Origin: Neisseria subflava
Lineage (GTDB): Bacteria; Pseudomonadota; Gammaproteobacteria; Burkholderiales; Neisseriaceae
DNA: 64,000 nucleotides
Direction of reading: 5' to 3'
NCBI RefSeq assembly: GCF_024205745.1
Contig: NZ_CP073117.1
Location: 682,001 to 746,000 of the forward strand
This document shows, piece after piece, positions 1,050 through 34,841 of this stretch. Made by a program: the position numbers and the translations under genes. Numbering within the stretch: the stretch's first letter is position 1; each line of letters starts with the position of its first letter. The notes below the pieces were generated by a model. The model made no database searches. It worked only from the letters and a program-made list of their open reading frames with translations, and had not been told where the DNA came from.

Positions 1050-1700
1050 TTAATTCATCGGACTCATTTCAAGATTGCTATAAAAAGAAAGAGCTAAAAT
1101 AGCACCAGTACCTGAATTTGTAGCAATCATCTCTCTACCATTTTCTCTCCAATAATAATGAAACCGTTCTTTAATTGAATCACTTTCTTTTCTATCCACA
1201 AAGATTGTGTCCGTATAATAGGAATCTGGCATTTCATCTTCTGTAGGAACAGGAAGAAAAGCAGGAAAGGTATTCTCAGGAAAAATACTTCCTTTTTTTT
1301 CTCGATATTTTTTTGTCATTGATATGTATATATTTGTTTTATAAGACGTATGCTCGATAACAACATACATTCCAATTGGTGACTCTATATCTAAATACTT
1401 TGGCATCTCAGGGTAGCTGTCTATTACTGGAACTTTCCATATTTCTTTCAATTCTTCGGCATGCATCACATACAGACAGTCATCTTTAAACGCTGTTTCG
1501 TACATCTGTTTAATCAAATCATCACGACTTTCCACTTTATGCAACATTCTGCGGCAGCGATTTCGTACCTGTTCCATCATCGTTTCTTTCTTTACAGTTT
1601 GGGTATTTGGGGAATGTTCTTTGTTCCTACTACTACTTACTTGTTGAGTGCAGGAACTCAATAAAAAAACAGTTAATACGGCAGTTGACGACAGTTTCAT
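1050..1700 (-). CDS. Predicted lipoprotein, unknown function, paired with the RTX protease-like gene
   Basis: The 216-residue product begins with a lipoprotein signal peptide: a KLSS n-region, a hydrophobic core (AVLTVFLL) and lipobox LLSSC, giving a lipidated Cys near residue 17. The mature part is charged and soluble-looking, without repeats or membrane segments. I do not recognise the family. Its stop lies 9 bases before the metalloprotease-like RTX gene, so the two form a likely operon, with the lipoprotein first. A lipoprotein coupled to a toxin-like gene could be an immunity protein, a surface anchor or a secretion partner (compare FrpD with FrpC in meningococci). This is inference from position. 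A run of eight A (T8 on the plus strand at 1313-1320) inside the gene is a possible slippage site. Confidence 0.7.
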   Translation of the reverse strand: MKLSSTAVLTVFLLSSCTQQVSSSRNKEHSPNTQTVKKETMMEQVRNRCRRMLHKVESRDDLIKQMYETAFKDDCLYVMHAEELKEIWKVPVIDSYPEMPKYLDIESPIGMYVVIEHTSYKTNIYISMTKKYREKKGSIFPENTFPAFLPVPTEDEMPDSYYTDTIFVDRKESDSIKERFHYYWRENGREMIATNSGTGAILALSFYSNLEMSPMN

Positions 1701-24543: not shown

Positions 24544-25173
24544 ATGAATCAGGCGCAACAGCTCCGCGACGGCATACAGGCACTGGGTTTGGACATCGAC
24601 GAAGCCAAACAGGCCAAACTCCTAGACTATGCCGCCCTGCTGCAAAAGTGGAACAAAACCTACAACCTGACCGCCCTGCGCGATCCCGCCCAAACCGTCA
24701 GCCATCATCTGCTCGACAGCCTGACCCTCCTGCCCTATATCGAACACGCACAAACCATGCTCGACGTAGGCTCCGGCGGCGGACAGCCCGGCATACCCAC
24801 CGCCATCTGCCGTCCCGACCTTGACATTACCCTCCTCGATGCCAACACCAAAAAAACCGCCTTTCTGCAACAAGCCGTCATCGAACTCGGCCTTAAAAAC
24901 GTCCGCGTCATCAGCGGCCGCGTAGAAGCCGCTGCCGACTGCCGCGCCGACGTCATCACCAGCCGCGCCTTTGCCGAACTCGCCGACTTCGTCAACTGGA
25001 CCGAGCACCTCCTCAAAGACGGCGGCTACTGGGCAGCCATGAAAGGCGTATATCCGCAAGAAGAAATCGACAAACTGCCCGAAAGCGTCGCCGTCGAAAA
25101 AGTCGAAGCATTGCACGTCCCCCAACTCAATGCCGAACGCCATATCGTCATCATCCGTAAAAAGGCCGTCTGA
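24544..25173 (+). CDS. rsmG: 16S rRNA (guanine-527 N7)-methyltransferase RsmG
   Basis: RsmG methylates N7 of G527 in 16S rRNA using SAM; its loss gives low-level streptomycin resistance. The 209-residue protein shows KWNKTYNLTALRDP, HHLLDSLTLLPYI, the SAM loop MLDVGSGGGQPGIPTAI and LDANTKKTAFLQQAV. ATG 24544 follows AAGGAATAAC. It precedes parA, the common gidB-parA order near replication functions, with a 67-bp gap. A DUS overlaps its 3' end. Confidence 0.96.
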   Translation: MNQAQQLRDGIQALGLDIDEAKQAKLLDYAALLQKWNKTYNLTALRDPAQTVSHHLLDSLTLLPYIEHAQTMLDVGSGGGQPGIPTAICRPDLDITLLDANTKKTAFLQQAVIELGLKNVRVISGRVEAAADCRADVITSRAFAELADFVNWTEHLLKDGGYWAAMKGVYPQEEIDKLPESVAVEKVEALHVPQLNAERHIVIIRKKAV

Positions 25174-25240
25174 AAACAACCCAAGCATACCGAATAACGG
25201 TACAATCCAGCCATCCACACTTAACACGACAGCAAAGCAC

Positions 25241-26011
25241 ATGAGCGCACAAATCCTCGCCGTCGCCAACCAAAAAGGCGGAGTCGGCAAAACCACCACC
25301 ACCGTCAACCTCGCCGCCTCCCTGGCCTCCAAAGGCCGCCGCGTCCTCGTCGTCGACCTCGACCCCCAAGGCAACGCCACCACAGGCAGCGGCATCAACA
25401 AAGCCACCATCGAAAACGGCGTTTACCAAGTCGTCCTCGGCGAAACCGACATCCCCGACGCCGTCGTCCGCAGCAAAGAAGGCGGCTACGACGTATTGGG
25501 CGCCAACCGCACACTGGCCGGCGCAGAAGTCGAACTCGTCCAAGAAATCGCACGCGAAATCCGCCTCAAAAACGCCCTGCAGCTCGTTGCCGACGACTAC
25601 GACTACGTCCTCATCGACTGCCCTCCGTCCCTGACCCTGCTCACCCTCAACGGCCTGGTCGCCGCCAACGGCGTCATCGTCCCCATGCTTTGCGAATACT
25701 ACGCCCTCGAAGGCATTTCCGACTTAGTGGCCACCGTCCGCAAAATCCGCCAAGCCATCAACCCCGACCTCGACGTAACCGGCATCGTCCGCACCATGTA
25801 CGACAGCCGCAGCCGCCTCGTCGTCGAAGTCAGCGAACAGCTCAAACAACACTTCGACAACCTGCTCTTCGACACCGTCATCCCCCGCAACATCCGCCTT
25901 GCCGAAGCCCCCAGCCACGGCCTCCCCGCCCTCGCCTACGACGCCCACGCCAAAGGCACCCAGGCTTATCTGGACTTGGCCGATGAACTGATTGCGCGTT
26001 TGGAAAAATAA
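25241..26011 (+). CDS. parA: ParA/Soj chromosome-partitioning ATPase
   Basis: ParA-type ATPases, working with ParB, move replicated origins apart. The start MSAQILAVANQKGGVGKTTT at 25241 gives 256 residues. The deviant Walker A KGGVGKTTTTVNLAASLA is followed by Walker A' VVDLDPQGNATTG and Walker B VLIDCPPSLTLLTLNGL. parB would be expected next but does not follow here: a DUS hairpin, a dispersed inverted repeat and a truncated mutM follow instead. This suggests the segment downstream of parA has been rearranged. Confidence 0.94.
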   Translation: MSAQILAVANQKGGVGKTTTTVNLAASLASKGRRVLVVDLDPQGNATTGSGINKATIENGVYQVVLGETDIPDAVVRSKEGGYDVLGANRTLAGAEVELVQEIAREIRLKNALQLVADDYDYVLIDCPPSLTLLTLNGLVAANGVIVPMLCEYYALEGISDLVATVRKIRQAINPDLDVTGIVRTMYDSRSRLVVEVSEQLKQHFDNLLFDTVIPRNIRLAEAPSHGLPALAYDAHAKGTQAYLDLADELIARLEK

Positions 26012-26207: not shown

Positions 26208-26447
26208 CTACTTGCTGCCCGACATACCCAAATGAACCAGCGGCACGCCTGTGTCAAAACGAATCAGCAGGTATTTGGCACGGCGGCGGCATTCACGCAC
26301 CACCAACCCGCGCAGGGTTTCAGGCAGCGCAGGCGGGATTTGCCAGCGCAGCTTGGGCTCACGGACGGTTACGGCGGAGACGGTTTGGTTGAGGATATGC
26401 GGAGCGATACCGCGTAGGGTGGTTTCTACTTCGGGAAGTTCGGGCAT
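26208..26447 (-). pseudogene. mutM: Truncated formamidopyrimidine-DNA glycosylase (N-terminal 79 residues)
   Basis: Fpg/MutM excises 8-oxoguanine. The fragment starts with the required catalytic Pro and motif [14 protein letters not shown] and continues to [11 protein letters not shown]. It then stops, whereas complete enzymes run to about 270 residues with an H2TH domain and a zinc finger. The match breaks immediately after the GMSGS codons and unrelated sequence follows, leading into the inverted repeat at 26101-26194. The fragment lacks the DNA-binding C-terminal half, so it is non-functional as MutM. A second full copy elsewhere is possible. Confidence 0.85.
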
Positions 26448-26726
26448 GATGGGGATGTGATTTTGGAGTGTGGATTATTATTAAGGGGAAAGGTAATTTG
26501 AAAATAGGTTTTATAGTGCGTGCCGAACAAACACAACGGAATCAACCGTAAATCTTTCCTGTTGTTTTTGAAAGAATTCAAGTTCCATTTTAACTTTAGC
26601 ACACCTTCCAAACAGCTTAAAAGTACTGCATCGGCAGTGTGGAATTTAGGACTTATCTAGTACAGCGTCAAAATTTTTTAGATAACCTATTTTTCATGGT
26701 TTTTAACTTGCTCATAGATTTAGTTA
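26448..26726. other. AT-rich spacer between the mutM fragment and the ATPase/nuclease cassette
   Basis: This 279-base stretch has no open frame with coding character. I see no hairpin terminator or known repeat. It may be part of the imported cassette, whose base composition it shares. Confidence 0.5.
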
Positions 26727-27323
26727 TTACACGAATCCTATTATTTTATCTAGAGAAATTTTCCCTTCCCTGCCAATTATTTGATCTATACGCACAAATT
26801 TAAATTCTTCATCAGTGTTATTTTCATTTATAGGATGACGAAATGTTTTACACTTTGGTATCATGTAATTTGGTCTAGTAACACCTGCTCGAGAAATAAT
26901 ACGCACGCTATTACAGTCAATATGATAATGGTTTGCTATAATGCCTATTAAATACCTCACATAAATACGTGAATTCATGAGTTGAATTTTTGTATCTTTA
27001 GTATTTGGCTTATCTGATTTTAAATCAAAAATTAGTACGCAATATTTTCCATTATTCATAAAAAAAATAACCAAATCACAACCTTTATTTATACCCGCTG
27101 TTGTTTTATTTAAATAGCAAGATAATTGTTTAAAATGAGCTCCTTTTGAATTACAATCTAGAGTAAATGCAAAAGAATTTTTAGGGATGCGTTCTATTAA
27201 TAATTTATTTAGTTTGCTATCTTTAGAATTTTCCTTTAATGGTAAAGTATCGTACTCTTGATGACTCGTATCTAATGCTAAAACAACATCAGGACAAATA
27301 ATCTCCTTAAGGCTATTAATCAC
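26727..27323 (-). CDS. Small AT-rich protein, possible PD-(D/E)XK nuclease, partner of the ATPase
   Basis: I choose GTG at 27321-27323, which overlaps the ATPase stop (GTGATTAA) and has GGAG seven bases upstream; a longer ATG start at 27341 is possible. The 198-residue product contains LDCNSKGAHFKQLSCYL, then GCDLVIFFMNNGKYCVLIFDLKSDK. That is an Asp on one strand and a D-x-K on the next, the spacing of a restriction-endonuclease-like core. A second basic block is NSVRIISRAGVTRPNYMIPKCKTFRHP. I do not recognise the family, and the nuclease call is inference. Codon use is very AT-rich compared with the surrounding housekeeping genes. Confidence 0.6.
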   Translation of the reverse strand: MINSLKEIICPDVVLALDTSHQEYDTLPLKENSKDSKLNKLLIERIPKNSFAFTLDCNSKGAHFKQLSCYLNKTTAGINKGCDLVIFFMNNGKYCVLIFDLKSDKPNTKDTKIQLMNSRIYVRYLIGIIANHYHIDCNSVRIISRAGVTRPNYMIPKCKTFRHPINENNTDEEFKFVRIDQIIGREGKISLDKIIGFV

Positions 27324-28691
27324 GTAAATTCTCCATTCCATAAAATATATTTTCTGACAATCTATTAGCTTTCTCGATAAGACAATCAAATATTTCCATA
27401 TTCATTCCATATAATCCAACCTCAATAGAATTGATCTTGTGATCACCAGTTAATGAATACGCTTTTACTTGTTCTGGTCTCAAAATCTCATGACTATCAA
27501 TATACTCTTCTTTTAATATAGCATTTTTATTTTTAAAATTAGAACTCAGCATAATTCTATTATTTAACTCCCTAATAAGATAATCGCTATGAGTTGTAAT
27601 AAGAATTTTTATCCCTGAATTTACTAAAGAAGCTAATAGACCTGCCATTTTTCTTTGATTATCGGGGTGCAAGTTTAATTCCGGTTCATCAATAATTAAT
27701 AAGCCATTAGGCTCTGCAAGATAATTAACATACATATCTATTAAAAATAGTGATTTAATAGATGAAGATGCGATATAAACAGGAACATTTACTTTGTCTC
27801 TGTTTCTCTCCTTTTTAGGTACAAAGACAACTTGTTTGTCAATAGATTTATAACTCCCCCCAGCATGTTTGATAGACTATCTAAAATGTATTTATATTTT
27901 TGCTGGTCAGATTTTATAAAGCTTTTTCTTTTTAAGATACTATCATAATCTCTTATAGTAGTTATATTATCTTGAATTGGCTGTGCATATCTTGAACGCA
28001 TAACGTTAATTAATTCAATAGGATTTACTTTTTCAGAAGCAGTTATATGTTCTAATATAGCATTCTTACTTATATCTAATTCTTTATAAAATAGAGAAAT
28101 TCCTGTTCTTTCTGATGTAATAACAAAAGGTCTGGGTAGTACGCTACGGAAAAGATATTCAGCGATTTGATTGCTAATGACACTATTTAAAATACTATTA
28201 GGTACACGTAAATTTTTACTTTCATCATCAGTTTGGAGAGTTACTGTTAAATGAATATCCTCTTTTTCTTTATTAAAAATTAGGCTTTCTTTCTTCCCGA
28301 ATTGAACAATGCTTTTATATTCGTCTTCAAAGTTAAATTTAAAGTCTTTTAGTTCAAGAGCAATTTGTGATTCTCCAAAAAAATCATCAATTGTATTAAA
28401 ATAGTCATCTAAATCAGAAGAAAATTCTTTTGATGCTTGGTCAATATATAAGGAAATGTTTTCTGAATAAAATTGCAAATTAATCTCTACGGTACCCTCT
28501 TGGCGGAGTTCTGAAATTGTTTCGCTAGATAATTGTAAATCTATCAACCTTCTAAAGTACCTAATAAAACCATAGATTGCATAACTAATATAAGTTTTTC
28601 CAACATTATTTGGACCGCAGATAACAGTTAAGTCTCCTACTTCAACATTTCCGTTATCTATATTTCCTAATTTTTTAAATTTAAAATTCAT
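27316..28691 (-). pseudogene. OLD/RecF-like AAA ATPase, frameshifted at a G6 tract
   Basis: The first frame (28691 down to about 27862) starts MNFKFKKLGNIDNGNVEVGD and has Walker A GPNNVGKT at residues 26-33. The second frame continues SYKSIDKQVVFVPKKERNRD and carries Walker B LLIIDEPELNLHP and the H-loop ITTHSDYLI. The two meet at a run of six G (C6 on the plus strand, 27856-27861) coding MLGG. Seven G would restore one 458-residue protein. The fold matches the AAA_15/AAA_21 ATPases of OLD-type nucleases, PARIS, Septu and similar anti-phage systems, but no TOPRIM domain is present. It begins 19 bases after the hrpA stop and is coupled to the small gene that follows. It may be phase variable, decayed or a sequencing error. 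Confidence 0.8.
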
Positions 28692-28710
28692 TTTATTTCC
28701 TATACTAGTA

Positions 28711-31665
28711 TTACTTGGGAAGATTTGACCAAATGTTTTTTAATCTTTTAACTGAAACGTGATATTGTGTTTTCAATTCCTGAGCGAATAATGATACCCG
28801 AAGTTCCTCAATCTGCCAACGAAACGCAGCGAGGTCGTCTGAAACGGTTAATCCTTGTTTTATCAAGCTATCTGTTTTTTCTTGCCACATATTTTCCAGC
28901 TCTTGAATATCGGCTTCGCGGGCTGCGTCGCGGGCGGGGTTGCTGCTGTATTTTTCGAGGCGCAGGGTCATGGCTTTGAGGTAGATGGGGAGGCGCGGCC
29001 ATTGTGTCCATGGGGTATGGCTGGCGAAGCCGGGGGCAAGCAGGGTTTGCAGGCGTAGTCTTAGGAGGTGGGTCAATGGATGTTTGCCGAGTTTGCCGTT
29101 GAGTTCGGCGTAGGCGGCTGCGATTTCCTGCAAGTAGCGGCTGAGGGCTTCTTTGACGGCGGGCAGGCGGCTGCGGGCGCGTTTGATTTGTTCTTTAAAG
29201 GCTTTTTCGTTGCGCGGCAGCTCGTCTTCGCCGATAAAGGCGCGGTCGCAGACGGCCTGTGTAAGGTCGTCGCGCAGGGTGTCGGCGTTGATGTGTTTGA
29301 GCAGCATGGCGGCTTGGGTGAAGCCTTGGATGCCTTTGTTCAAATCTTTTACCTGCTCTTTTAATTGCAGCTTCATCAATTCAATGACACCTTGACGGTG
29401 TGCCTGCTCTACGGCTTCTGTGGTATCAAACAGGCGCAGGGCGATGCGGCCGTCTTTTTCTTTTTGCAGACCGAGGTAGCCGGTAAGCTGTTGTTTGCCG
29501 CGTGCGAATTTGATGGATTCGGGCAGGGTGCCGATGTCCCATGTGGTCACGTTGTCGCGCTCAAATTCTTGGGTGTTGTCGCGGAAGGTGACGGCGGCGG
29601 CTTGGCCGAGCTGTTGTTGCAATTCGTGCAGTTTGCGGCCGCCGGCAAGCTCTTGTCCGCCGTCGTCGATAATGCGCAGATTCAGATAGCAGTGTTCGGG
29701 CAATTCTTGCGCCGCCCATGCGTCTTGGTCGATTTGCTCGAGAATCCGCATATCGCCGGCGCTTTTGGCGATAAAGTGTGCCAACTGGGGAATGATGGCC
29801 GCTTGGCGGTCGGGATTGCTTTCGAGGAATTTGGTGATGAAATCAGGTACGGGCACGCAAATGCGGCGGATTTGCTTCGGCAGTGCTTTAATCAGCAGCT
29901 GGATTTTTTCGCGTAACATACCGGGCACCAGCCATTCGAGTGACGGCGCGTGCAGGCGGTTGAGGACGGTCAGCGGCACGGTCATGGTCACGCCGTCGAG
30001 CGGATGGTGCGGCTCGAAGCGGTAGGAAAGTTTGAACTTGCCGTCTGCGGTTTGCCAGAATTTGGGGAACTGTTCTTCGGTAATGTGCGCGGCGGCGTGT
30101 TGCATCAAATCGTCGCGGCTGAGGAACAGCAGACGCGGATTGTCGCGCTCGGCGGTTTTGAGCCAGGCTTCAAAAGTGCGGATATCGGCAAGGGGCAAAG
30201 GTTTCAGACGGCCTTTTTGAGATGCAGGCTGCTTTTTGGGTTTGGGACCGTCTGAAACATTTTGTCGGGTGTGTGAACTCGGTTCACGCTCGCGGTTGGA
30301 TGCATCTTTGGAATCCGCGTGCGTGGCTTGCGCCACACGCCCTGCGTTGCGCTGGTTTGCTTGTCCGTTTTGTCCGGCTGTCTTGTCCGACTGGGTTTGT
30401 CCACCCTCTTCGCTTCCCCAAACGCCGCCTTTCGCGTCTTTCCACACCAGCTCGGGCAGGCGTTCGTTATAAAACGCAAACAGGGCTTCGTCATCGACCA
30501 ATACGTCTTGCTTGCGCGATTTGTGTTCGAGCTCGGTAATTTCTTTAATCAGCTTTTTATTGTGGGCAAAAAAGGTCGTCTGAAGATTGCTTTCCTGTGC
30601 CACCAATGCGCCGCGGATAAAGATTTCGCGCGCTTCTTCGGGCGCAACTTTGCCGTAAGACACGGGGCGGCGCGGCAATACGGTCAGGCCGTAAAGCGTT
30701 ACCCGTTCGCTGGCGACGACTTCGCCGCGTTTTTGTTCCCAGTGTGGCTCGAAATAATGGTAGCGGACGAGGTGCGGCGCTTCCTGCTCTATCCATTCGG
30801 GCTGGATAACGGCGACGTCGCGCGCGTAAAGGCGCGTGGTTTCAACCAATTCTGCCGCCATCACCCATTTGGGTTTGGCTTTGAACAGGGCGGAGGCGGG
30901 GAAAAGGTGGAAACGGCTGCCGCGCGCGCCGGTGTAGTCGTTGCCGTCGGGCGATTTCATGCCGACGTTGGCGATAAGGCCGGTGAGCAGGGCACGGTGG
31001 ATTTGTTCGTAGCCGGCTTCTTTGGCGGCACGGATTTGGGCGCGGTGTTGTTTCTTATCCAGTTGTTTTTGTTTGAGTTTGGCCGCCAAATCTTGGTCGC
31101 CTTGGCTTTCAGACGGCCTTAATTGCTCTTGGGTAGGAGGTTGTCGAAACGCGGCTTCTTTGGTGGTCAAACCCATTTCAATCGCGGTTTGGGCAAGCTG
31201 GTGGTGTAGCTCGCGCCATTCGCGCATACGCAGGTGCGACAGGAAATATTGGCGGCACCATTGCACCAGCTGCTTGTTGGACAAACCCTTGTCGCGCTCG
31301 CGCTGGAAGCTGTCCCAAATGTTCAGATAGGCAAGGAAGTCGGATTGCTTGTCGGTAAAGCGCTCATGCGCCTTGGCGGCGGCATCGCGCGCTTCCAGCG
31401 GCCGCTCACGCGGGTCTTGAATCGACAGTGCGGACGCAATCACCAATATTTCCGCCATACAGTCGTGTTTCTTCGCCGCCAGCAAAATGCGCGCAATTTT
31501 CGGATCGATGGGCAGGCGCGCCATTTGTTCGCCGAGCTTGGTCAGGCGGTAGCGCGTGTTGGCACCGATATGGCCCGAACTGTTTTGCAGGCCGTCTGAA
31601 ACATTGGCTGGATTGGATCGGGCATCCATGCCTGATCCGCGTACTTGGTTTTTCATATTTTGCAT
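28711..31665 (-). CDS. hrpA: HrpA helicase, C-terminal part of a split gene
   Basis: This 984-residue frame matches HrpA after the RecA-like core: YRLTKLGEQMARLPIDPKIARILLAA, LVIASALSIQDPRERPLEARDAA (ratchet/winged-helix region), an OB-fold region near LYARDVAVIQPEWIEQEAPHLV, and the long DUF3418 C-terminus. The DEAH motifs lie in a separate frame at 33447-34841. The first 30 residues before SSGHIGANTRYRL are probably not native. Residues about 390-490 (SDKTAGQNGQANQRNAG to QPASQKGRLKPL) are low complexity and contain a dispersed repeat and DUS. Whether the fragment is translated is unknown. HrpA resolves stalled or collided ribosomes in E. coli (family knowledge). Confidence 0.85.
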   Translation of the reverse strand: MQNMKNQVRGSGMDARSNPANVSDGLQNSSGHIGANTRYRLTKLGEQMARLPIDPKIARILLAAKKHDCMAEILVIASALSIQDPRERPLEARDAAAKAHERFTDKQSDFLAYLNIWDSFQRERDKGLSNKQLVQWCRQYFLSHLRMREWRELHHQLAQTAIEMGLTTKEAAFRQPPTQEQLRPSESQGDQDLAAKLKQKQLDKKQHRAQIRAAKEAGYEQIHRALLTGLIANVGMKSPDGNDYTGARGSRFHLFPASALFKAKPKWVMAAELVETTRLYARDVAVIQPEWIEQEAPHLVRYHYFEPHWEQKRGEVVASERVTLYGLTVLPRRPVSYGKVAPEEAREIFIRGALVAQESNLQTTFFAHNKKLIKEITELEHKSRKQDVLVDDEALFAFYNERLPELVWKDAKGGVWGSEEGGQTQSDKTAGQNGQANQRNAGRVAQATHADSKDASNREREPSSHTRQNVSDGPKPKKQPASQKGRLKPLPLADIRTFEAWLKTAERDNPRLLFLSRDDLMQHAAAHITEEQFPKFWQTADGKFKLSYRFEPHHPLDGVTMTVPLTVLNRLHAPSLEWLVPGMLREKIQLLIKALPKQIRRICVPVPDFITKFLESNPDRQAAIIPQLAHFIAKSAGDMRILEQIDQDAWAAQELPEHCYLNLRIIDDGGQELAGGRKLHELQQQLGQAAAVTFRDNTQEFERDNVTTWDIGTLPESIKFARGKQQLTGYLGLQKEKDGRIALRLFDTTEAVEQAHRQGVIELMKLQLKEQVKDLNKGIQGFTQAAMLLKHINADTLRDDLTQAVCDRAFIGEDELPRNEKAFKEQIKRARSRLPAVKEALSRYLQEIAAAYAELNGKLGKHPLTHLLRLRLQTLLAPGFASHTPWTQWPRLPIYLKAMTLRLEKYSSNPARDAAREADIQELENMWQEKTDSLIKQGLTVSDDLAAFRWQIEELRVSLFAQELKTQYHVSVKRLKNIWSNLPK
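30315..30345. repeat. 31-bp dispersed repeat unit inside hrpA
   Basis: CCGCGTGCGTGGCTTGCGCC and the following 11 bases resemble the left arm of the element at 26101-26131 (CCGCGTGCGTGCG ... CACACCCTACG). GTGGC/GCCAC forms a small internal hairpin. It is read in frame as part of a low-complexity insertion in HrpA. Confidence 0.55.
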
Positions 31666-31730
31666 AGTCTTGTCGGTCGGGCATCTTCCCCGACATCATC
31701 TAAATTTGTCTTTATTGGTTTTCACGCCGC

Positions 31731-33308
31731 TTATTGCGGATAAACATATTCCGCCTTGCCGTCGCGAATGTTCAAGCTGCCTGCATCACCTGTAATCAGA
31801 TTGCCCGTTACCGAGCCTTCGCGACAACCTGAAACCGGCATATCGTAGCCCAGCGTGTGAATCAGGAACGTTGAAAGCTGCTGATGGAAGGCAATCTCGC
31901 AAGGCGCAAAAGCCTGGTTGGCAGCCTGTTGCACGGCCTTATCCGGGCTGTACAACACCAGCGGCACGAGATAGCTGTCGGGCTGCACTGTACCTTGATT
32001 GTAGGTATCCTGGCGCACATACTGGCCATGATCAGAGGTATAGGCAAACAGCCAGTTGCCGTCAGGCTGCTTTTGCAGCTGCTCGAATACGGTTTGAATC
32101 ATTTGGTCGGTTTTATGGATGGTGTTGTCGTACTTATCCACAATATTGGCTTCGCCGAAAACTTTATCTTGAGGCTGCAACAATGCGCCGTATGGGACAT
32201 GCGAACCGCGTTGGTGCAACACAATAAAATGCTTGCCCTGCTGCAAATTGATTTTGTCGAACAGCGGCAGCAGCTTCTCATCAGGCATATTGTCGCCGTT
32301 GCCATAGCCAAGCTGCGTCGGCTGAATCAGATGGTCTATCCATTTCTTACCGATTAAGTTCAAAATCGCCATCTCGTTTTCCGCCTGCGCGCTGTAAAAA
32401 TACGTTTCATAACCCTGCTCTTTGGCGAGGCGGAACATATTGGTATCGCCGCTGCTGATTTGCTCATAGCCGTTGGCATGCGGTATCGCATTGAAAAAGC
32501 TGGGCAGGGACACAGCCGTCATCAAAGCGGCGGAATAGCTTTGCTTCACAATCGGCTTAAATTCGGCTTGCGAAAGCTGGGTCAAAAACGGCGAAGTTTC
32601 GCGTCCGTAGCCAAACAATTTCAAATGCGCCGCGCTTTCGCTTTCGCCCATAATCAGGACGATATTTTGAACACTGCCCTGCCCGATTTTGCTTGGCGCT
32701 GGCTGTTTGAACACAGGAATCTTGCTTAAATCAAACAACTGATACGGCAACACGCGCCCGACAAAATAACCGAAGCTGAAATAATTGGCTTTGATACGGC
32801 TGTATGTCGGTTTGGGCGAAATACCGTGTTCCTGCGTTGTACTGAATGAGCGTCCAAAAATCAGCAACATCGCCGCAATAAATAAAATATCGGCGGCAAA
32901 ATGCGTCTTACGGCGGAACTTGGCAAGGCTGCAAAACAACACGACTTCCAACACGCCCCACAACACAGGCAGCCACAACTTATCCAACATCGACGCGCCC
33001 GCGCTGCCGACTTCGGTAACCTCTTTCAGCATCAGCCAATAATTAATGCCCGTCATCCAACTTTGATAAACCGCATAATGCACATTGTTGGCAATAATAC
33101 TGAACGCAAAAAATACCGCAATCAACAAACGCGTCGCCTTATACCGCGCAAACAGATACAGCGCAGCAATCACAAATGTCAGCGCAAACGTTTCCGCCAT
33201 TTTCGCAACCGGCAGGGTTTCAATCCCAAATACAAAGCGATAGGCAATTTCGCTGGCAGTAAGTAAAGACGAATACAGAACAAGCGTGAATAAAGATTTT
33301 TTCATCAT
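31731..33308 (-). CDS. lpt3: LOS phosphoethanolamine transferase, Lpt3-like
   Basis: The 525-residue protein has about five N-terminal membrane helices (residues 1-150), then a periplasmic sulfatase/alkaline-phosphatase-fold domain: IVLIMGESESAAHLKLFGYGR, the catalytic-threonine region SAALMTAVSLPSFFNAIPHA, FIVLHQRGSHVPYG and FAYTSDHGQYVR. As I remember meningococcal Lpt3, which adds phosphoethanolamine at O-3 of heptose II of the LOS inner core, this sequence is nearly the same; Lpt6 or EptA are the alternatives. ATG 33308 or the next ATG at 33305 may be used. The gene lies between the two halves of hrpA, bordered by DUS copies, so it appears inserted there. Confidence 0.82.
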   Translation of the reverse strand: MMKKSLFTLVLYSSLLTASEIAYRFVFGIETLPVAKMAETFALTFVIAALYLFARYKATRLLIAVFFAFSIIANNVHYAVYQSWMTGINYWLMLKEVTEVGSAGASMLDKLWLPVLWGVLEVVLFCSLAKFRRKTHFAADILFIAAMLLIFGRSFSTTQEHGISPKPTYSRIKANYFSFGYFVGRVLPYQLFDLSKIPVFKQPAPSKIGQGSVQNIVLIMGESESAAHLKLFGYGRETSPFLTQLSQAEFKPIVKQSYSAALMTAVSLPSFFNAIPHANGYEQISSGDTNMFRLAKEQGYETYFYSAQAENEMAILNLIGKKWIDHLIQPTQLGYGNGDNMPDEKLLPLFDKINLQQGKHFIVLHQRGSHVPYGALLQPQDKVFGEANIVDKYDNTIHKTDQMIQTVFEQLQKQPDGNWLFAYTSDHGQYVRQDTYNQGTVQPDSYLVPLVLYSPDKAVQQAANQAFAPCEIAFHQQLSTFLIHTLGYDMPVSGCREGSVTGNLITGDAGSLNIRDGKAEYVYPQ

Positions 33309-33392
33309 TAATATTTCACAATAAAAAATTTACCGATTGGGTTTTAAAACCCAATATTCCCTTTTCAATAGTTTTTAGTTTCTCAATGATTT

Positions 33393-33457
33393 AGGCCGTC
33401 TGAAAATGAAACATGGCCTGCCATTTGATTAAGAAAGATTTTATTTTCAGACGGCCT
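33393..33457 (-). terminator. Widely spaced DUS pair at the hrpA/lpt3 junction
   Basis: Inverted AG-DUS copies at 33393-33404 and 33446-33457 enclose a 41-base loop. The second copy supplies the TGA stop of the hrpA 5' fragment. It could terminate transcription from hrpA before lpt3. Confidence 0.6.
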
Positions 33458-34841
33458 CCACCGCCCCCAATTCCAGCAATACCTGAAAACCGTCATTGAT
33501 ATACCGCGAGTCGGGCATTTCTAAAAATGGGAATGCTGCTACGTCGCCCAAGTTCAGTGATGCCATGCGTAGGATGACGGCGGCGAGGTTGCTGCGGACG
33601 ATTTCAGGGTCGGTGAATTCGGGGCGGCTGTTGAAATCTTCTTCTGAAAACAGTCGGATACATACGCCTGCGGAGACGCGGCCGCAGCGGCCGGAGCGTT
33701 GGCGGGCGGCGGCTTGGGAGATTTTTTCGACATGAAGCTGTTCCACCTTCGCCCGCGCGGAATAGCGTTTGACGCGCGCGAGGCCGGTGTCGATGACGTA
33801 TTTGATGCCCGGCACGGTGAGCGAAGTTTCGGCGACGTTGGTTGCTAACACGATGCGGCGTTTCGCGCCTGAAGGGTGGAAGATTTTGTGCTGCTCGGCG
33901 TGCGACAGGCGTGCGAACAGGGGTAGGATTTCGTCGTTGCGGCGCAGCGTGGATTTGCGCAAGGCTTCGGCGGCTTCGCGGATTTCGCGCTCGCCCGGCA
34001 GGAACACCAAAATATCGCCTTCGCCGTAGCGTGCCAATTCGTCCGCCGCATCGACAATCGCGTCGGTCAGCTCGACTTCTGCGTCGTCTTCGTCTTTGCT
34101 GGTCAGCGGGCGGTAGAGGATTTCGACGGGATAGGTGCGTCCGCTCACTTCCAACACGGGCGCGCCGTTGAAGTGTTGGGAGAAGCGTTCTGCGTCTATG
34201 GTTGCCGAGGTGATGATGACTTTCAAATCGGGTCGGCGCGGCAGCAGTTGTTTCAGGTAGCCCAAGAGGAAGTCGATGTTCAGGCTACGTTCGTGCGCTT
34301 CGTCGATGATAATCGTGTCGTAGGCGGCGAGATAACGGTCGGTCTGGGTTTCTGCCAACAGGATGCCGTCGGTCATCAGCTTGACACAGGCATCGCGCGA
34401 GGTGTGGTCGGTAAAGCGCACTTTATAGCCGACTGCACTGCCAATTTCGGATTTCAGCTCTTCGGCAATCCGCTCTGCTACGGAGCGCGCGGCCAAACGG
34501 CGCGGCTGGGTATGCCCGATCAGCCCCGCCGCCCCGCGCCCGAGTTCCAAACAAATCTTGGGCAACTGCGTGGTTTTGCCCGAACCGGTTTCGCCGCAAA
34601 TAATCGTTACCTGATTTTCAGCAATGGCTTTTTTGATTTCGTCGAGTTTTTCGTGAACGGGCAGCGTGTTGTCGAATTCGGGCTTGGGCAGTTTGGACAG
34701 GCGTTGCAGATAGAGGTCGTGCGATTTTTTGTATTTTTCCTCAACCTTGGCCAAGCCGCCGTATTTATTGGGGTTTTTAAAGGCAGATCGCAGAAAATGG
34801 CGGTCTTTGGAGAGAGTTTGGGCGAAATCGGGTTGCGGCAT
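33447..34841 (-). CDS. hrpA: HrpA helicase, N-terminal DEAH core of a split gene
   Basis: The 464-residue frame contains the DEAH-box RNA-helicase core: motif [15 protein letters not shown] (about residue 82), Ia [16 protein letters not shown], motif [18 protein letters not shown], motif [13 protein letters not shown] and motif [14 protein letters not shown]. It runs up to [13 protein letters not shown], where a DUS-encoded TGA ends it. HrpA is usually about 1300 residues; the missing ratchet and C-terminal domains are in the frame at 28711-31665. The 1.8 kb between them holds lpt3. All ATPase motifs are present, so this fragment might still bind RNA and ATP, but normal HrpA function is doubtful. 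Confidence 0.88.

Follow-up and report, generated by a model that had tools for sequence, protein, structure and literature searches.

What kind of gene pair is it that forms an AT-rich cassette in the chromosome of Neisseria subflava next to the 3' end of hrpA, and how did it come to lie there? The pair sits in the 64,000-nucleotide window analyzed here (NCBI RefSeq assembly GCF_024205745.1, contig NZ_CP073117.1, positions 682,001 to 746,000; coordinates below are window positions), where a preliminary description had proposed an OLD/RecF-like ATPase and a small PD-(D/E)XK-like protein as a candidate anti-phage system. We conclude, with a probability of about 0.8, that it is a defence cassette of PD-T4-4 type and that it reached its place by exchange into a standing insertion site at the hrpA 3' end. 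The proposed pairing of an OLD/RecF-like ATPase with a PD-(D/E)XK-type partner is upheld; by PADLOC family membership the system is not an undescribed one but of PD-T4-4 type, and it resembles the published WonAB.

The cassette spans 26500..28742, as judged from GC content and homology edges, its far edge at ~26.5 kb being approximate. On its minus strand the ATPase gene is split over two reading frames, a first of 300 aa carrying the Walker A motif GPNNVGKT (27789..28691) and a second carrying the Walker B motif LIIDEPELNLHP, the H-loop ITTHSDYLI and a C-terminal extension (27316..27876), so that all the motifs originally read are present, though in two frames. The small partner follows on the same strand (26727..27323; 198 aa, GTG start) and begins inside the end of the ATPase frame, with the claimed coupling visible as an 8-nt overlap with the ATPase stop (GTGATTAA). 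The same arrangement, with B immediately behind A in a single operon, recurs in 94 of 99 relatives. GC content over 26.75-28.7 kb is 0.27-0.29 against a window mean of 0.51, confirming that the pair is far more AT-rich than its neighbours, and the cassette forms the deepest GC trough of the window, the sole other 1-kb stretch below 0.36 lying at 0.7-1.9 kb.

Both proteins matched PADLOC models of the PD-T4-4 family. The first ATPase frame aligned to positions 1-294 of the 460-position PD-T4-4_A profile (PDLC04033; 2.3e-78) and the second to positions 317-459 (4.6e-50), with PDC-M47A a close second for the first frame (1.8e-67) and at 2e-38 for the second, and the small protein matched PD-T4-4_B (PDLC04035) over residues 1-179 at 3.6e-45. 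Pfam recognized AAA_15 and AAA_21 above their cut-offs in the ATPase and gave no match for the small protein, NCBIfam returned nothing above cut-off for either, and B is 36-39% identical to a relative from an Escherichia albertii plasmid. By family membership, the pair is classed as a PD-T4-4-type anti-phage system.

PD-(D/E)XK nucleases are marked by the pattern D...(D/E)xK together with a conserved E and Q. When B was aligned with 45 relatives (46 rows including the window protein), E31 was conserved in 44 rows, D83 in 45, D or E at position 100 and K102 in all 46, and Q114 in 43; the window protein itself reads D100-x-K102. An AlphaFold model with a pTM of 0.85 is compatible with this assignment; a Foldseek search yielded weak rows only, several of them unrelated, and the B profile found no sequence match in the PDB. 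B is thus very probably a PD-(D/E)XK nuclease, as predicted from motif and model, and the pair adds weight to the nuclease assignment of the PD-T4-4 small partner.

An OLD/RecF-like ATPase joined to a nuclease or another effector is the broad logic of Septu, PARIS, Gabija, OLD and AbiL, and several of these models matched the ATPase pieces, though more weakly than PD-T4-4_A. The Neisseria partner differs from those systems in having no HNH, TOPRIM or helicase match in Pfam, PADLOC or NCBIfam, in agreement with the first inspection by eye. The kind is already known, as PD-T4-4 and WonAB are both published, and the pair extends PD-T4-4 to Neisseria. The account of PD-T4-4 in PMC9519451 (Vassallo et al. 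2022) describes its discovery by functional selection in E. coli and its carriage there on mobile DNA, an element resembling integrative and conjugative elements, and a domain table in PMC10952713 lists an ATPase domain, PF13175 (AAA_15), with a PD(D/E)XK part, the two parts whose PADLOC models match here. In contrast, the Neisseria copy is chromosomal, sits at a gene-anchored exchange site and has a frame-broken ATPase; no integrase was seen in the cassette.

WonAB, as presented in PMC12137116, pairs an OLD-ABC ATPase with a PD-(D/E)xK nuclease, is likened by its authors to PD-T4-4, and blocks phage ICP1 through abortive infection without lysis; both proteins are required, and inactivating the ATPase leads to loss of the nuclease. 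It is prophage-borne, and its authors note ATPase inserts and a C-terminal extension that differ from PD-T4-4. By this description it resembles the Neisseria pair, an OLD-type ATPase with a PD-(D/E)XK partner. On this analogy we infer an anti-phage action in which, in an intact system, the OLD-type ABC ATPase (A) would form an ATP-dependent dimer, act as the infection sensor and both hold and license nuclease B, whose activation would then halt phage production.

The copy in this genome, however, is probably off. The two ATPase frames overlap near 27.85 kb and the break falls between Walker A and Walker B, so that neither piece can form the ATP site. Because ATPase-dead WonAB variants lose the nuclease (PMC12137116), B alone would likely be idle, and we regard it as open yet probably inactive here. 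That only one of the two genes is open lowers the case for a functional PD-T4-4 system and leaves descent from the family in place. Intact copies exist elsewhere, since the ATPase frame is open for at least 430 aa in 89 of 99 relatives.

Those open relatives also lend some weight to the idea that the broken frame reflects faulty sequencing or assembly at a homopolymer, the pair being intact and active, as does the clean state of everything else in the pair, with B open, the A-B overlap kept and both ATPase pieces strong PADLOC matches. The genome is nevertheless a single contig rated 99.99% complete, and we consider an error rather unlikely. At the break, or next to it, is a short mononucleotide run, and some Neisseria genes are commonly phase-switched through such runs, which would allow the ATPase to be off here and on in sister cells. 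Yet the run is a short one, the motif expected at that place is absent from all 11 near relatives, runs of at least six Gs occur in the ATPase genes of only 14 of 99 relatives, and one genome of the species was examined, so that phase variation appears very unlikely.

The distribution of the pair proved scattered, as had been anticipated. B was found in 2 of 46 genus genomes, its own included, the second copy being divergent (32% identity) and accompanied by an open 456-aa ATPase; among genomes sampled from the order the PD-T4-4_B model matched 2 of 399, and among those sampled from the class PD-T4-4_A matched at least 12 of 369 (threshold 1e-40; the window's genome again included), a lower bound given that at most four candidates were scored per genome. 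Relatives occurred in 22 plasmid records (Klebsiella 12, Escherichia 9, Bernardetia 1). Phage records yielded no match to B, and no relative turned up when viral contigs were scanned with B alone, although the ATPase profile hit 19 viral-contig loci. Such scatter is as expected for a mobile defence system. Carriage of this particular copy by a prophage or plasmid is not supported, with B lacking a phage-record or viral-contig match, although plasmids do hold relatives.

The insertion site itself yields the broader result. The DNA 3' of hrpA was compared in 40 of the 46 genus genomes, that is, the window and 39 relatives (G and L numbers are our handles for genomes and loci); those left out had no hrpA match (G030, G031), ended less than 300 bp from hrpA (G014, G015) or held a fragmentary hrpA (G033, G042). 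The first 500 bp after hrpA fell below 0.40 GC in 32 of the 40, and in bins from 4 kb on the count was 0 to 3 of 32-34. At the main mutM locus, used as a control, none of 25 loci fell below this value either upstream or downstream (25 of the 26 loci L043-L068, one being too short, with the hrpA-linked copies L039-L042 excluded). AT-rich open reading frames (ORFs) at the hrpA site numbered 73 in 35 loci, and 50 of these, from 29 relatives, were scanned against PADLOC at E <= 1e-6; the scan left aside L103, L091 and L108, which are homologous to scanned loci, and L075, L078, L079, L100, L101, L102 and L106, which have no clear AT-rich cassette.

A defence model was matched in 17 of the 29 scanned relatives' cassettes, and with the window included (30 scanned) 18 of the 40 compared genomes carry a known or candidate match; about ten more have AT-rich cassettes without a counted one. 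The PADLOC matches comprise a CapP/RmrA-like system (G024), type II restriction-modification (R-M; G037, G019, G041), an OLD-like ATPase whose best match is PD-T4-4_A (G026), cll (G023), NsnA (G035), PDC-S59 (G010), AbiL (G040), OLD-like proteins (G027, G005), a cytosine methylase (G009), an ATPase-TOPRIM protein with PD-Lambda-5_B/methylase (G018), Hachiman (G021), a PD-Lambda-5_A-like protein beside a cytosine methylase identified by Pfam (G045), PDC-S06 (G002) and, 1.4 kb past the hrpA stop, DRT2 (G028). G003, outside the PADLOC scan, holds a pair 73% and 57% identical to that of G035. At the protein level, 23 of 50 cassette proteins matched PADLOC compared to 1 of 10 control proteins taken 5-10 kb away (10 of 30 eligible; Fisher p 0.04). 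The single control hit, a DRT2 in G044, means that the wider surroundings are not entirely free of defence genes.

These counts bear directly on whether the hrpA-3' site is merely neutral ground, open to foreign DNA of any kind, with no enrichment for defence. Twelve of the 29 scanned cassettes lack a counted PADLOC match (a helix-turn-helix-only match in G032 was not counted), other contents include a pair that by eye resembles a toxin-antitoxin system (G028) and a 2484-aa ORF (G043), and G013, G016 and G020 carry genes of normal GC at the site, all of which would suit neutrality. We nonetheless judge it unlikely, given that the matches in the other 17 include several near full model length (Hachiman, PDC-S06, type II R-M) and that none of 20 Pfam-scanned cassette proteins matched a transport or metabolism family. 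Beyond the genus, where 20 of 34 hrpA matches in other genera of the family were fetched, 8 loci were below 0.40 GC directly after hrpA and 12 were not; five of the 8 are clear cases (L110-L113, L129), one is marginal (L115) and two, from AT-rich genomes, are uninformative.

If the site is one of exchange, different cassettes should lie between the same flanks, and such inserts, which the preliminary description had suggested looking for, were found, the cassette differing in most of the related species. The hrpA end (88-94% nucleotide identity) and the parA side (94-97%) are common to the window, G024, G037, G036 and G035, and yet between these flanks lie five cassettes among which no likeness was detected at the limits used. 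Both flanks are likewise shared, at 92-96%, by G007, G018, G026 and G023, the group with a 501-aa gene, which carry four different cassettes, and common flanks enclose three cassettes in G009, G005 and G019, where the methylases of G009 and G019 are 31% identical; G022 and G039 belong to this last flank group and are without an AT-rich cassette. G025 and G006 have one cassette in common (99.5% protein identity), and G040, with the same far flank, carries AbiL.

Homology between loci with different cassettes ends on the hrpA side at locus nt 563-627, and hrpA stops at ~597-609, which indicates that many cassettes bring the final codons of hrpA with them. For the window the edge lies at 28742 in comparison with five relatives, one base lower (28741) with G036, and at 28748 with G004 and G019; the last ~31 bp of its hrpA, which find no match in the relatives, seem to have been brought by the cassette. 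A precise site-specific integration point was considered and rejected: although most edges fall within ~30 bp of the end of hrpA, certain cassettes retain what appears to be an ancestral hrpA tail and terminator, so that the edge is a zone with no single point. In the minimal mobile elements of Neisseria, as outlined in PMC3082526 and PMC2784325, whole-gene cassettes differ between conserved genes and are exchanged via homologous recombination. The hrpA-3' site shares with these the presence of different gene cassettes between the same conserved genes and differs in that the hrpA end always forms one side (40 genus loci) and the far side changes between species groups. On the minimal mobile element model, the cassette would have arrived by transformation and homologous recombination in its flanks, a route that the sharp homology edges fit. 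A defence hotspot at hrpA, a helicase gene, was named for Neisseria in no title or abstract start among the matches listed by a literature search, the original minimal mobile element site list lying outside this comparison.

Cassettes at this site without a defence-model match are candidate new defences. Among 20 cassette proteins, Pfam recognized HATPase_c_3 (G025), TPR (G044), DUF4325 (G036), DUF2806 (G034), DUF4747 (G004) and a cytosine methylase (G045), and found nothing in the remaining 14. We lean, by a small degree, towards the view that in Neisseria and close genera immune cassettes are exchanged through a standing port formed by the last hrpA codons, with a different module per species and the cassette often supplying the final hrpA codons, and that the uncounted cassettes are undescribed defence systems, including the three-gene set of G007/G011, the set of G036 with a DUF4325 protein, the GHKL-ATPase protein of G025/G006, the TPR protein of G044, and those of G029, G008/G012, G017, G034 and others. 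If true, the site would act as a discovery trap as well as a marker of transformation-driven immune turnover. Compared with the pair itself, the site is the larger and more useful result: a single short chromosomal place that supplies candidate new systems ready for study, offers a test bed for cassette-by-cassette immunity trade among naturally competent bacteria and may mark differences in phage resistance between strains.

Two of the uncounted contents were also seen in pairs of species. A three-gene AT-rich set (~370, 143 and 212 aa) lies at this site in L070 (686-2883, oriented) and L103 (1154-4263, oriented), two species, with 64-70% protein identity; the L070 set has no Pfam or PADLOC match, and the L103 copy is broken by an ORF that by eye resembles a transposase. 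In L087 and L099 the main gene of the AT-rich cassette encodes a GHKL-ATPase-like protein of 665-691 aa (HATPase_c_3), 99.5% identical between two species.

The cassette had first been described as lying between a split hrpA and a truncated mutM, as an imported island would; both features exist, and neither the split nor the truncation appears to stem from this insertion. The C-terminal half of hrpA (28711..31665, minus strand), the anchor gene of the site, is open up to the cassette, and its split is located away from it at 31.7-33.4 kb. Over 31665-34841 the split gene shows frames of 464 and 984 aa, between which lies a 525-aa ORF (31731-33308), membrane/sulfatase-like by eye. The halves are also apart in G009 (~2.3 kb gap) and G035 (~1.1 kb), and hrpA is one frame in G036, and a splitting of hrpA by cassette insertion was rejected on these grounds. 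The middle ORF recurs at 97% in G024, where the N-terminal hrpA half was not found within the 7.4 kb fetched, and hrpA frames of 985-996 aa occur in G005, G024, G037 and G039, of which G024 alone received a closer look. Taken together, the separated halves in G009 and G035, the shared middle ORF in G024 and the intact gene in G036 suggest that a second exchange place may lie inside hrpA. Downstream of hrpA in L107 and L108 there is a second partial hrpA 3' end (59-60% identity) ~0.8 kb beyond the first, as though cassettes had been stacked and every one had brought an hrpA tail along.

Across the cassette from hrpA, the mutM fragment (26208..26447, minus strand, 79 aa) is a second, truncated copy, because the same genome has another mutM within a 280-aa open frame (G000:C1:95172-95528); for this reason we also rejected the idea that the insertion had disabled the only mutM. 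Fragments like that of the window occur in G036 and G005, and G004 has a full-length mutM near hrpA. Beyond it lies a parA-like gene (25130..26011, plus strand), the far flank conserved in G024, G037, G036 and G035, each with another cassette. The gene names parA, rsmG, mqo, trpC and hrpA and the DNA uptake sequence are presumptive assignments, in part by sequence likeness. Core words of the uptake sequence in the window take the form AGGCCGTCTGAA in 68 of 84 instances, with none from 26.06 to 30.2 kb, and a variant word, AGGTCGTCTGAA, stands at 28832 in the hrpA end. A second AT-rich stretch of the window (1050-1700) contains a 216-aa ORF that by eye has a lipoprotein-like start.
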